A stretch of DNA of 64,000 nucleotides from positions 124,001 to 188,000 of the forward strand of contig JAGVWE010000005.1 in NCBI GenBank assembly GCA_018304425.1, read 5' to 3'. This document shows, one piece after another, positions 50,573 through 55,492 of the stretch. The stretch's first letter is position 1, and the number at the start of each line of letters is the position of its first letter. This DNA is from Candidatus Iainarchaeum sp. Its GTDB lineage: Archaea > Iainarchaeota > Iainarchaeia > Iainarchaeales > UBA10219. The position numbers were made by a program, and so were the translations under genes. The notes beneath the pieces are model-generated. The model was not told the origin of the DNA, did no database searches, and saw nothing but the letters and a program-made list of their open reading frames with translations.

Positions 50573-50800
50573 ATGCCTGAAAAACCGGTCCCACGCAGGA
50601 AAAGCGCCTGGAAACTCATCCGCCGAGCCACTTACAAAGGGCCAGCCACGGACTGCGTGAGGGAAGTGGACACAACCCTATAAGCGGCTCGCACCGTTTG
50701 CAAGCCCCTGTGCGCGGCTGAAAGGCCTTGGAAAAGGGTTTATTAATCCCTTCAGCGTTAATCCATTGAATTCTGTTTAGGCAAGGGGACTGGGTTGGAA

Positions 50801-53800
50801 ATGATTCGCATCGCGCGCCTCCGTTTGAAGAACTTCAAGAGCTTCCGCAAGGCCAACATCCCCTTTCACGAGGGCTTCACCTGCATTGCGGGCAGCAATG
50901 CCAGCGGCAAGTGCGTGGTGGGGGACACGAAAGTCTACCTGTCGGACGGCTCCGCCAAACGCATCGACGAGTTGGTTGAAGCGGCGCTCGCGAAGTCGCA
51001 GCAGCCAGAGAAAATGGAGGACGGGTGCTTCACCCTCGCCAACCCGGAAAACGTCGAGGTCGCATGCCTTAACACGTGCTCGCTGAAAATGGAGCCCATG
51101 CCCGTGCGCTCGTTCATCAAGCGCACGAGCCCCGCCACGCTCCTGAAACTCACGACGAAAAGCGGGCGCAGCGTCACGGCCACGGCCTACCACCCGGTCT
51201 ACTCGCTGCAGGACGGAAAGCTCAAGGCATTGCAGGCCGGCGAACTGAAGGCCGGCACGCGCATCGCGGTGCCGCGGCGCCTCGTCAAGGAAACGCCGGA
51301 CGGTTTTTTCCGGGAGCTGATTGAAGCGGTCGCCGAGGAAGACAACCTGTATGCGCCGAATTACGGAGAGTACCGCGAGATTGCGCGCAAGTGGCTGAAG
51401 GAAAACGGCCTGACGCAGAAAGCGGGGGCGGCGCGCACCGGCATCCCTTACCTGGCCTTGAAGTCGTTGCTGGACGGCCAGGCCATGAAGCTGGCATACT
51501 TGTTCAGGTTGCTGAAGGCCGCAGGCCACGAAGCAAAAGAAATAGCCTGCCTGGTTCCGATGGCAAAGGGCAAGACCGGCGCGAAGGAAGTGGTCATTCC
51601 CTGGCATAACTCCAAGAAATTCGCGCGGCTGCTGGGGTACTTGTTCGCGGAAGGCCGGAACTCGACGAACAACCAGGTGTGGTTCACCAACGGCACGCCA
51701 GAAATCGTGGAAGACTATGCGAGCCTGTGCCGGCAGACCCTGGGCATCGAACCATTCGTGAAAAAATACAAGCCGAACGCCTGGGACGCCATCCTGTTCT
51801 CGAACCCCGCCAGCCTGTTCCTGGACAAGTTCGGGTTATGCAGGGGCAAACGCACGAAGCACAAGCGGTTGAACGAATTTTTCATCAGGCACGCGTCGCC
51901 TGAAGAGCTGGCGGAGTTCCTGAACGGCTTGTATTGCGGCGACGGTTACGTGACTGGCAACACCGTTGAGCTGACCAGCGCGAGCCGGGAGCTGGCTTTA
52001 AGCGTGCAACGCCTCCTGCTGATGCTGGACATTCCGGGGCGCCTCAAGCAGCGCACCAAGCATGCGACCAACACGGGCCGGAGCGGCATCTATTGGAGTG
52101 TGAGCGTATTCGGCCAGGAAAACCTCCGGAAATTCAACGAGAAAATCCGGCTCGTGCACGAGGCGAAGCGACGAACGCTGGAAAGCGCGGTTGCCGAGCC
52201 GCGACGGATCCATTCCAATGTGGACCTCATTCCGGGGTTGCAAGGCGTTATCCGAGAAACCTGCCAGGTGCTGGGTTCGCACCCCATGCGCAAAACCGAC
52301 CGCTATCCGAAGCTCCAAGCCTATGCGAGGAACCTGTGCGAGGTCAGCCGGCACGGCCTGCAGGAGGTCATCGAAAGGGAGTTCGCTCCCTTGGCGGTCG
52401 CGTCCCCGGAGAAGCTGGCCGGCCTCCGGCTGCTGGCGGAATCGGATGTTCTGTGGGACGAAATCGTGTCCATTGAAGCCTTGGAATCGGCGGAAGAATG
52501 GGTGTACGACCTGTGCATCGACGAGCACCACAACTTCGTGGCCGACAATGTGTTCGTGCACAACAGCAACATCCTGGACTCCATCCTGTTCGCCTTGGGC
52601 GCCACGAGCCTCAAGATGCTGCGGGCCTCGCGGTTGACCGACCTGGTGAACCATGACGCGGACGAGGACTATGCGAAGGCCGAGCTGGTGCTGAATGAGA
52701 ACGGCCAGGAAATCGAGGTCAAGCGGCTGATTGACAAGAAGGGGCGCGGCGCGGTCAAGCTGAACGGGAAGAAGAAGAGCCTGGATGAGGTCACGGCCTA
52801 CCTCGAGGAGCTGGGCCTACGGGCCAGCGGCCACAACATCGTTGTCCAGGGAGACATAACCAAAATCATCGAGATGAACCCCAAGGAGCGGCGACAAATC
52901 ATTGACCGGGTCGCGGGCCTCCAGGAGTTCGAGGAAAAAAAGGAGGAAGCGCTCAAGAAGCTGGAGAAGGTCGAGCAGAAGGTGCGCGAGGTCGGCATCG
53001 TCTTGAAGGAACGCGAGCTGTACCTGGGGGAACTGGAAAAAGAGCGGGCGCTGGCCCTGAAGTTCGAGCAACTCAACACCGAGTTGAAGCAGTCGAAGGC
53101 CACGATTTTGGCGCTGGAGATAAAGAAGGTCAAGGCCGAGTTGGCGAGCGCGGAAAAAAAGCGGGAGAGCCTGCAGAAGCAGATTGACCGCCTGGCCAGG
53201 GAAAAAGAGGGGTTGGCCGAGGAGGGCCGCAAGGCAGGGGAAAAATTGGAGGAACTGACCCGGAAACTCTTGGAGGCCAGCCAGAAGACCTATTCCGGCA
53301 TCGGCCGCGAAATCGAGGAAAAAAAGGCGGAAGCCCGCGTCCTCCGCGAGCGACTGGCGGGTTTGAACCAGCGCCTGCAACAGGATTCCCTGGCCCTCCA
53401 GCAACGGGTGGACCAGGCCAAGAACCTGGCCAAGACCGCGGGCGAGCGGGAGCGGGAACTGCACACCGCGCGGGACAAGCTTCAGGGACTCAGCGAGTCG
53501 CTCAAGCAATTGCAGGGCCTGATTGAAGCCAAGTCCAAGACGGTTTCCGCCAAGAGCGGGGCGTTGAAGGCCAAGGAAGGCCAGATCGAGGGGTTGAAGG
53601 CGAGGGCCTTGGAGCACAAGGAGGCCTTGATGGGCACGCACGGCGAAATCGCGTGGGCCGAGAACCTCCTGGCCTCGCGGGAGCACTCCATTGAGGCCGT
53701 GGAAAAGGAGAACGCGGCGTTGCACAAGAAGCTGGAGGAGAAGGGCGAGCTGTTGAAGCGGCTCCGGGAACTCGAGAAACGCAAGGACCACGAGCAGGCC

Positions 53801-55492
53801 TTGTTGAAGAAGGAAGCCGAGCTGGAGAAGGCCTTGGAGGACATCAGTTACTCGAAGAACCGCATCGAGGGCCTCCACGAGGAGATGGCGGCCCTGCAGA
53901 AGGCGAAAACCTCTTGCCCGGTCTGCGAGAACGAGTTGACCGGGGAGCGGAAGGACAAGTTGCGCGCGAAAAAGGAGCGCGAGAAGGACGAGTTCGAGGC
54001 CCGCATCCAGGAAAAGCACGCCTTGCGCGTGGAAATCGCGCGCGAGAAGGACGAGTTGCGGCACACCCTCAACGAGATAATCAAGTTGCGCGCCCAGCTC
54101 GAGGACGTGGACGAGCTGAAGAAGAAGCTGGAGGACAACCGCAAGCGCGTGCTGGAGTTGACCGCGGAATTGAAGAAGGTGGACTTGCCGGGCCTCAAGG
54201 CCAGGGAAAAAGAGCAGCAGCACGAGCTCGAGCGCGTGGAACGCGAGTGCTCGCTGGCCGTGAAGGGCCTGGAGAACATGCAGGAATCCGCGGAGAACCT
54301 GGCGTTCAACCAGTTGATGGAGAAATTCAACGAAGCCAACGCCGAGCACGCGGAGCGGCAGGAGCGGTTGCTCAAGCTGGAAAGCGAGTTGAACAATGCC
54401 AGGGAGGCCAGGGAGCGGCTGGGCGGCGAGGCCAAGGCCCTGGAAGGCCAGGTAAAGGGGTTCGGCGAGCAGCGGATGGAGAACGAGCGCGCCCTCCAAG
54501 GCATTGAAGGGGAACTGGCGGAGAAGCAGCTGGAAATGGAGAAGTCCCGGCAGGAAACCGGGTTGATGGAGCAGGAAAAGCAGCGGGTGTCCGCGCGGGT
54601 GCACGCGGTGGCCGGCGAGAAAGGCGAACTAGAGGGAAGGATTTCCGGGCTGGAACGGGAACTCAACGAGTTCAATCTCGAGCAGTCGCGGAACGAGGTC
54701 CGAATCGTCGACCTGGAAGAGGAATTCAAGCCCTTCGCGTCCATCGAATTGCTGAAGGAAGCCGAGCTGCCCGCCCTGCGGAGCCGCCTGCCGAAAATCG
54801 AGGCCGAACTCGACAAAATCGGGGCGGTCAACATGAAGGCCATCCAGAGCTATGAAGACTACAAGAAGGAAGTCGAGGACGTGCGTGGCAAGGCGGCCGT
54901 GCTCGAAGGGGAGCGGAAGGCCGTGCTGGAAATGATTGACAAGATCGAGGTCAAGAAACTCAACGTGTTCATGGAGTGCTTCAACAAGGTCAGCTATTTC
55001 TTCGGCGAACTCTACAAGAGCGTCTTCCAGAAGGAGGGAAGGCTGGGCTTGTCCGATGCCGTGAACCCCTTGGCAGGCGGCCTCCTGATCCAGGCCAAGT
55101 ACAAGGAAGACAAGATGAAGAGCCTGGACGAGATGTCGGGCGGGGAAAAGTCGTTGACGGCGTTGGCGTTCCTGTTCGCCATCCAGCAATACCAGCCCTC
55201 GCCCTTCTATATCTTTGACGAGATTGACGCGGCCCTGGACAAGGAGAACTCGGTGCGTGTGGGCCTGATGATCCAGCAGGTGGCCCGGAAAAGCCAGGTC
55301 ATCAGCATCACGCACAATGATGCAGTCATCAAGCTGGCCGACCAGCTCATCGGCGTGGCCCTGAACAAGCAGAAGAGCAGCGTGGTGGGGTTGAAGCTCA
55401 AGGGCGTGCTTTCGGCCGGTGGGGTCTTGGGCGGCGGGGAGAAACCCGACGAGGTCAGCGACGAGGAAGGCGCGGAAGAGCTCTCCGCGTAG
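50801..55492 (+). CDS. SMC-like ATPase with zinc hook, carrying an intein
   Basis: The precursor has 1563 residues; 1012 remain after splicing. The head has MIRIARLRLKNFKSF, a Walker A GSNASGKSN split by the intein, and an SMC-type NPKERRQIIDRVAGLQEFEE. The C-terminal signature is SGGEKSLTALAFLFA, with Walker B FYIFDEIDAALD. Long coiled coils flank CPVC (first Cys at precursor residue 1039, about 488 after splicing), the Rad50-type zinc hook. No SMC hinge domain is present, and the spliced length is short for SMC. It probably organises or repairs chromosomes. A TTG two codons upstream is an alternative start. Confidence 0.92.
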   Translation: MIRIARLRLKNFKSFRKANIPFHEGFTCIAGSNASGKCVVGDTKVYLSDGSAKRIDELVEAALAKSQQPEKMEDGCFTLANPENVEVACLNTCSLKMEPMPVRSFIKRTSPATLLKLTTKSGRSVTATAYHPVYSLQDGKLKALQAGELKAGTRIAVPRRLVKETPDGFFRELIEAVAEEDNLYAPNYGEYREIARKWLKENGLTQKAGAARTGIPYLALKSLLDGQAMKLAYLFRLLKAAGHEAKEIACLVPMAKGKTGAKEVVIPWHNSKKFARLLGYLFAEGRNSTNNQVWFTNGTPEIVEDYASLCRQTLGIEPFVKKYKPNAWDAILFSNPASLFLDKFGLCRGKRTKHKRLNEFFIRHASPEELAEFLNGLYCGDGYVTGNTVELTSASRELALSVQRLLLMLDIPGRLKQRTKHATNTGRSGIYWSVSVFGQENLRKFNEKIRLVHEAKRRTLESAVAEPRRIHSNVDLIPGLQGVIRETCQVLGSHPMRKTDRYPKLQAYARNLCEVSRHGLQEVIEREFAPLAVASPEKLAGLRLLAESDVLWDEIVSIEALESAEEWVYDLCIDEHHNFVADNVFVHNSNILDSILFALGATSLKMLRASRLTDLVNHDADEDYAKAELVLNENGQEIEVKRLIDKKGRGAVKLNGKKKSLDEVTAYLEELGLRASGHNIVVQGDITKIIEMNPKERRQIIDRVAGLQEFEEKKEEALKKLEKVEQKVREVGIVLKERELYLGELEKERALALKFEQLNTELKQSKATILALEIKKVKAELASAEKKRESLQKQIDRLAREKEGLAEEGRKAGEKLEELTRKLLEASQKTYSGIGREIEEKKAEARVLRERLAGLNQRLQQDSLALQQRVDQAKNLAKTAGERERELHTARDKLQGLSESLKQLQGLIEAKSKTVSAKSGALKAKEGQIEGLKARALEHKEALMGTHGEIAWAENLLASREHSIEAVEKENAALHKKLEEKGELLKRLRELEKRKDHEQALLKKEAELEKALEDISYSKNRIEGLHEEMAALQKAKTSCPVCENELTGERKDKLRAKKEREKDEFEARIQEKHALRVEIAREKDELRHTLNEIIKLRAQLEDVDELKKKLEDNRKRVLELTAELKKVDLPGLKAREKEQQHELERVERECSLAVKGLENMQESAENLAFNQLMEKFNEANAEHAERQERLLKLESELNNAREARERLGGEAKALEGQVKGFGEQRMENERALQGIEGELAEKQLEMEKSRQETGLMEQEKQRVSARVHAVAGEKGELEGRISGLERELNEFNLEQSRNEVRIVDLEEEFKPFASIELLKEAELPALRSRLPKIEAELDKIGAVNMKAIQSYEDYKKEVEDVRGKAAVLEGERKAVLEMIDKIEVKKLNVFMECFNKVSYFFGELYKSVFQKEGRLGLSDAVNPLAGGLLIQAKYKEDKMKSLDEMSGGEKSLTALAFLFAIQQYQPSPFYIFDEIDAALDKENSVRVGLMIQQVARKSQVISITHNDAVIKLADQLIGVALNKQKSSVVGLKLKGVLSAGGVLGGGEKPDEVSDEEGAEELSA
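50912..52564 (+). mobile_element. Intein with LAGLIDADG homing endonuclease in the SMC P-loop
   Basis: The intein has 551 residues and is inserted between Lys and Ser of GSNASGK/SN. It begins CVVGDTKVYLSDG (Cys1). Block B is SVTATAYHPVY, with the TxxH pattern. The two DOD endonuclease motifs are LLGYLFAEGR and FLNGLYCGDGYVTG. The C-terminal blocks read VYDLCIDEHHNFVADNVFVH, ending in His-Asn, with Ser as the +1 residue. All splicing residues are present. The endonuclease acidic residues read Glu in the first motif and Asp in the second, so it may be active. Confidence 0.95.

Follow-up and report, generated by a model that had tools for sequence, protein, structure and literature searches.

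SMC is the universal chromosome-folding motor, and its two arms are normally joined by a hinge, which is treated as a defining part of the protein, is implicated in DNA binding and figures in models of how DNA enters. A gene in the 64,000-nucleotide stretch of Candidatus Iainarchaeum DNA analysed here (the window) raised the question of what joins the arms where this domain is missing, and whether such a protein is still an SMC. An earlier note had described a product with SMC-like heads and, at the mid-point of its coiled coil, CPVC within a short loop and no hinge. We find that the window protein is an SMC in which a Rad50-like zinc hook replaces the hinge, and that hook SMCs of this kind prevail across the window's order, which belongs to Ca. 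Diapherotrites (Iainarchaeota).

The gene and its arm tip

The SMC gene occupies 50801-55492 (+), starting with the ATG at 50801, which agrees with the starts of homologues; an alternative in-frame start is the TTG at 50795, from which the open reading frame covers 50795-55492 (+). An intein interrupts the gene right after the Walker A lysine, and the span of 52565-55492 given in the earlier note corresponds to the C-extein and not to the whole gene. The spliced length of about 1012 residues noted there was correct, since removal of the intein leaves 1012 aa from the ATG (1014 aa from the TTG). The features of the gene are as follows.

50801..50911, + strand: N-extein, the first 37 residues of the SMC head through GSNASGK of Walker A (open reading frame, motif)
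50912..52564, + strand: 551-aa intein (C...HN) that carries a LAGLIDADG homing endonuclease and splits Walker A between its K and S (GSNASGK/S) (PF14890, E 5.8e-22; PF14528, E 1.7e-20)
52565..55492, + strand: C-extein, the remainder of the SMC, 975 aa plus stop (open reading frame)
52877..52942, + strand: SMC-type motif NPKERRQIIDRVAGLQEFEEKK of the N-terminal head/neck (conserved in the homologue alignment)
53903..53941, + strand: loop of the zinc hook, where the coiled-coil hairpin turns and a hinge would otherwise sit (AlphaFold2 model; matches to the P. furiosus Rad50 hook)
53915..53926, + strand: CPVC, predicted to supply half of a Zn2+ site (mid-region alignment invariant at C, P and C and nowhere else)
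55136..55147, + strand: ABC signature motif SGGE of the C-terminal head (invariant in homologue alignments)
55214..55240, + strand: Walker B / D-loop FDEIDAALD (conserved in the homologue alignment)

Some homologues, such as L018, contain no intein. The window SMC shares the K/S intein site of Walker A with at least three other diapherotrites (L063 of genome G013, L067 of G047 and L197 of G085), the intein of G047 being a mini-intein. The SMC of G085 carries both an intein and a hinge, indicating that the intein site is independent of the hook.

Searches with Pfam found no SMC_hinge in the window protein. Almost every other archaeal SMC examined, including those of Micrarchaeota, Aenigmatarchaeota and Halobacteria, reached 120-240 bits with a hinge HMM that we built, the exception being one from Altiarchaeota (L095); the same HMM gave nothing on the window SMC and nothing meaningful on hook SMCs. 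A hinge encoded by a separate gene was rejected, as PF06470 had no match over cut-off anywhere in the window genome and none in 74 of the 75 genomes of the order.

The spliced protein contains a single CxxC, namely CPVC, halfway along the coiled coil (nt 53915-53926; residues 488-491 counted from the ATG, 490-493 from the TTG). Rad50_zn_hook (PF04423) scored 20.8-24.3 bits on the window protein, against a cut-off of 24.3, and was found in 30 of 32 CPxC-bearing SMCs. When a profile of the mid-region was compared with the PDB, it matched the P. furiosus Rad50 hook (6zff, E 2.6e-14; 1l8d, E 1.2e-13) in an alignment spanning both helices. The 32 homologous mid-regions have a mean column identity of 35%, yet no column is invariant but those of C, P and C, and CPxC lies at a nearly identical residue position across the full-arm homologues, indicating that CPVC does not occur by chance. 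With an HMM made from the hooks of hook SMCs, the nine Rad50s of DPANN-type genomes scored 24-41 bits, whereas hinge SMCs, haloarchaeal Rad50s and the hooks of ASRPs, the group of coalescin (ClsN) and Sph, gave no match.

Structure prediction agreed with the profiles. AlphaFold2 modelled the window mid-region (mean pLDDT 96) as a helix, a 13-residue loop containing CPVC, and a second helix, and two chains of 1L8D (Rad50 Zn hook) ranked first and second in a Foldseek search of the PDB with this model; the E value of 4e-3 was modest, which is normal for a coiled coil. A model of the full-length homologue L018 (mean pLDDT 80) showed two long helical arms, a short loop and no globular middle. No globular mid-domain was seen in either model, and the earlier description of CPVC in a short loop without a hinge is borne out by both kinds of search, with the Rad50 hook matched and the hinge absent.

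Arm lengths, partners and a proposed mechanism

In nearly all hook SMCs, 451-461 residues separate Walker A from the first cysteine, and usually 397-408 separate the cysteine from the signature. The corresponding distances in hinge SMCs of the same class are 459-471 residues from Walker A to the hinge and 384-410 from the hinge to the signature. The similarity of these distances argues that the arms were kept and that a hinge of ~150 aa was swapped for a loop of ~13 residues. Short-armed forms were also observed. Two mini-arm hook SMCs, L053 (G006; 810 aa) and L055 (G029; 772 aa), have matching losses of ~90 and ~110 residues per arm, respectively, and SMCs of Aenigmatarchaeota and relatives (L099-L101, L103, L104, L106, L107; ~806-834 aa) have a full hinge with each arm shorter by ~160 residues.

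The window genome (1.48 Mb, 7 contigs, 92.6% complete) encodes a single SMC, the next-best SMC_N match being a 689-aa Rad50. It also encodes ScpA (49.2 bits) and ScpB (114.4 bits), each with a match in 47 of the 53 genomes sampled from the order; in several genomes (e.g. G002, G007, G011, G014, G020) only a few kb separate the two genes. In archaea, ScpA and ScpB often fail to associate, and the archaeal ScpAs studied to date do not bind ScpB (PMC7055376). None of the open reading frames listed for the window places a metallophosphoesterase gene beside the SMC, but an Mre11-like metallophosphoesterase, detected as a weak match and then identified by eye from its sequence, is encoded elsewhere in the genome, on the same contig (C1) as Rad50. 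The presence of a separate Rad50 and an Mre11-like gene indicates that the hook SMC is no stand-in for Rad50. A gene for a histone-fold protein is present as well. The earlier suggestion that this protein could be the only chromosome organiser of its lineage therefore holds in that it is the only SMC in the genome, and fails in that Rad50, an Mre11-like protein, a histone-fold protein, ScpA and ScpB are also encoded.

We consider it highly probable that this protein is the single canonical SMC of its diapherotrite host, with its hinge replaced by a Rad50-type hook and its arms at full length, and that it works as a zinc-joined Smc-ScpA(B) condensin. In the ancestor of most of the order, the hinge of ~150 residues would have given way to a 13-residue Rad50-type hook loop on full-length arms. 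The hook would most likely have been recruited from an archaeal Rad50; convergence on CPxC is a possible alternative to such a donor, the hook being short. Two SMC monomers, each contributing the two cysteines of its CPVC, would hold one Zn2+ between them and so close the arm tips, the task of the hinge in other SMCs. Zinc binding and dimerisation through the hook are suggested by homology and by prediction of the monomer, although some other role for CPxC is conceivable. At the opposite end, ATP would engage the SMC-type heads, which the kleisin ScpA would bridge, possibly together with ScpB, so that the complex would act as an Smc-ScpA(B) condensin in DNA loading or loop extrusion. Such a mechanism is plausible because an engineered B. 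subtilis Smc(Zh), in which the P. furiosus Rad50 hook takes the place of the hinge, supports normal growth on rich medium (PMC5344682), and because the reverse swap functions in fission yeast Rad50 (PMC6969161).

Alternatively, the hooks may tether different DNA-bound complexes and not the two arms of one ring, which would make the protein a DNA bridge more than a loop extruder. Although Rad50 hooks have been suggested to tether separate complexes (see the discussion in PMC6969161), high-speed AFM found the two Rad50 arms of one complex to be consistently joined at the hook (PMC6969161). The retention of a kleisin, and arms as long as those of hinge SMCs, also speak for closure within one ring, and we regard tethering as unlikely.

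Head domains and origin of the hook

A further possibility was that the protein is a Rad50 paralogue, or a coalescin/Sph-type ASRP, that merely looks like an SMC and acts in repair or compartmentalisation without a kleisin. The zinc hook in a short loop speaks for such an identity, and ASRPs are archaeal SMC-superfamily proteins with hooks; in a published tree they form a clade of their own (PMC9389158). The heads, however, are of SMC type. The motifs on which the earlier note had based this assignment are present, the window protein matched SMC_N with an E value of 1.7e-57, and the best PDB match of the SMC profile was the Pyrococcus SMC head 5xei at 521 bits, as against only 86 bits for the best Rad50. 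Condensin and SMC also led the matches of the full-length L018 model in Foldseek.

Trees of the head domains were computed with IQ-TREE. Hook SMCs, together with the SMCs of family f2 nested among them, formed one clade (100/100 with long-branch rows left out, 81/100 with them), and Rad50 formed a separate clade (100/97, 100/100), so that the heads fall outside Rad50 in the trees as in the profile search. Matches collected from plasmids in looking for ASRPs were mostly bacterial SMC, RecN or ABC proteins, and the ASRPs analysed were two annotated haloarchaeal sequences. These two lay outside the SMC clade at 96/99, on long branches; ClsN itself was not among the sequences. Kinship with coalescin/ClsN, which the earlier note had proposed, is thus not borne out for these two ASRPs, whose CWxC hooks are also unmatched by the hook profile. 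With ScpA and ScpB kept across the order, and a true Rad50 and an Mre11-like protein encoded elsewhere in the genome, a repair or compartmentalisation ATPase of this kind is very unlikely. The tree, the profile scores and the gene content together led us to reject identity as Rad50 or coalescin.

The hook could also be the ancestral state, with the hinge gained in other archaea, since Rad50 has a hook and deep SMC branches are poorly resolved. Yet bacterial and other archaeal SMCs have hinges, and in the tree rooted with Rad50 the hook clade lies inside hinge SMCs, beside the hinge SMC of G085 from the same class, a placement with weak support (80/53). A tree constrained to join hook SMCs with Rad50 was modestly rejected (p-AU 0.02), the group having been picked after a first tree. 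Ancestry of the hook appears highly improbable, and we favour replacement of a hinge by the hook.

The distribution of the hinge points in the same direction. PF06470 was found in one of 75 genomes of the window's order as against 10 of 12 genomes of the sister orders in the same class. A match to the SMC query was obtained in 47 of 53 genomes of the order (window genome included), with a hinge in one; among the 21 genomes that are >=90% complete, SMC, ScpA and ScpB were each present in all 21 and the hinge in none. We extracted 38 SMC proteins of the order, the window's included, and CPxC was present in 32, from 16 families. An artefact of assembly or gene modelling that removed the hinge might be suspected because the genomes are mostly metagenome-assembled, but it can practically be dismissed since these 32 proteins share one architecture and one comes from a 99% complete single-contig genome (G013); recurrence across the order rules out an assembly artefact. 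Diapherotrite-type hook SMCs were also seen on contigs of metagenome-assembled genomes labelled bacterial (L072, Chloroflexota; L081, Falkowbacteria), which are probably mislabelled or misbinned.

Some SMCs carry neither of the two known structures at the arm tip. The SMCs of family f2 (L046, L050, L064, L065; genomes G037, G044, G001, G030, one of the four being 99% complete) are 924-932 aa long and have neither hinge nor CxxC. Their nested position in the head tree suggests that the hook was secondarily lost, leaving no recognisable dimerisation domain at the tip, and the existence of SMCs with neither structure indicates that the hook is not strictly required. Family f4 (L059, L060; G003, G038) has an insert of ~110 aa at the arm tip, without CxxC, and the SMC of Candidatus Altiarchaeota archaeon DPANNHV_H2.bin.136 (L095; 1038 aa) has a middle of ~110 aa that is not recognised as a hinge. 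Neither matched the hinge profile in HHalign, with one or two sequences as input. From sequence, the f4 insert may be either a hinge that has degenerated or a tip domain of a new kind, and the middle of L095 is possibly another replacement of the tip. A real hinge was found in family f9 (G008, fragmentary), the sole genome of the order with a hinge match; its partial SMC could be placed in the tree only as a long branch. The two SMC fragments of G008 (L061 and L062) differ slightly where they overlap, which suggests a strain mixture or two copies. We read the whole as a single origin, one hinge-to-hook swap followed by losses or replacements, with a provisional place in it for f9 and f4.

Significance and comparison with known systems

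On balance, we lean towards the view that the order's only SMC-kleisin complex is hinge-free and joined by a Rad50-derived hook that arose in one swap, that f2 has since become hookless with no dedicated dimerisation domain at the tip, and that the hinge fold and DNA binding by the hinge are dispensable for natural SMC function. In this large lineage an unrelated, tiny metal clasp has taken the place of the hinge, while heads, arm length and kleisin were kept. Nature has here repeated the Smc(Zh) experiment, which is evidence that the hinge serves chiefly as a dimerisation module, and the hook SMC suggests that parts of SMC and Rad50 can be exchanged in evolution. The hook SMC offers a small hinge-free system for testing the need for contacts between hinge and DNA, and the order provides natural short-arm, hook-less and insert-bearing variants for comparison. 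The hinge-to-hook swap has already been made deliberately in the laboratory; a natural counterpart, an SMC whose hinge is replaced by a hook, did not turn up in our search of the open-access literature, including that on SMC of Diapherotrites/DPANN.

Among known systems, LmuB and Arcadin-4 differ from the hook SMC in having Rad50-derived heads, in acting in defence or cytoskeleton contexts, and in being without a kleisin. Both belong to the SMC superfamily and are reported to be related to Rad50; for LmuB of Lamassu, this relationship and the presence of a hook in many members are described in PMC10586767. The ASRPs (coalescin ClsN, Sph) are, like the hook SMC, archaeal SMC-superfamily ATPases with a zinc hook, but their hooks are CWxC and not CPxC, and the two haloarchaeal ASRPs sampled are shorter, at 617 and 653 aa. 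Apart from ClsN, the ASRPs described so far are mostly found alongside an ordinary SMC; in the present case it is the SMC that bears the hook. The Rad50 zinc hook (PF04423; PDB 1L8D, 6ZFF) and the hook SMC both have an antiparallel coiled coil that ends in a CPxC loop, and they are also similar in sequence along the coil; unlike in Rad50, the hook sits on SMC-type heads, and the expected partner is a kleisin and not Mre11.

The hinge-less SMCs without CXXC reported from marine Actinobacteria (PMC12153180) resemble hook SMCs in lacking a hinge within the SMC head clade, but only hook SMCs have a conserved hook; the f2 SMCs come close to the actinobacterial type. With the canonical archaeal SMC (Smc-ScpA/ScpAB, e.g. 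Pyrococcus), the hook SMC shares heads, signature and neck motifs, arm lengths, single copy, ScpA and ScpB, and differs in having a zinc-hook loop instead of the hinge of ~150 residues. Smc(Zh) has exactly the architecture of the hook SMC, but is man-made, whereas the natural version is fixed across most of an order.
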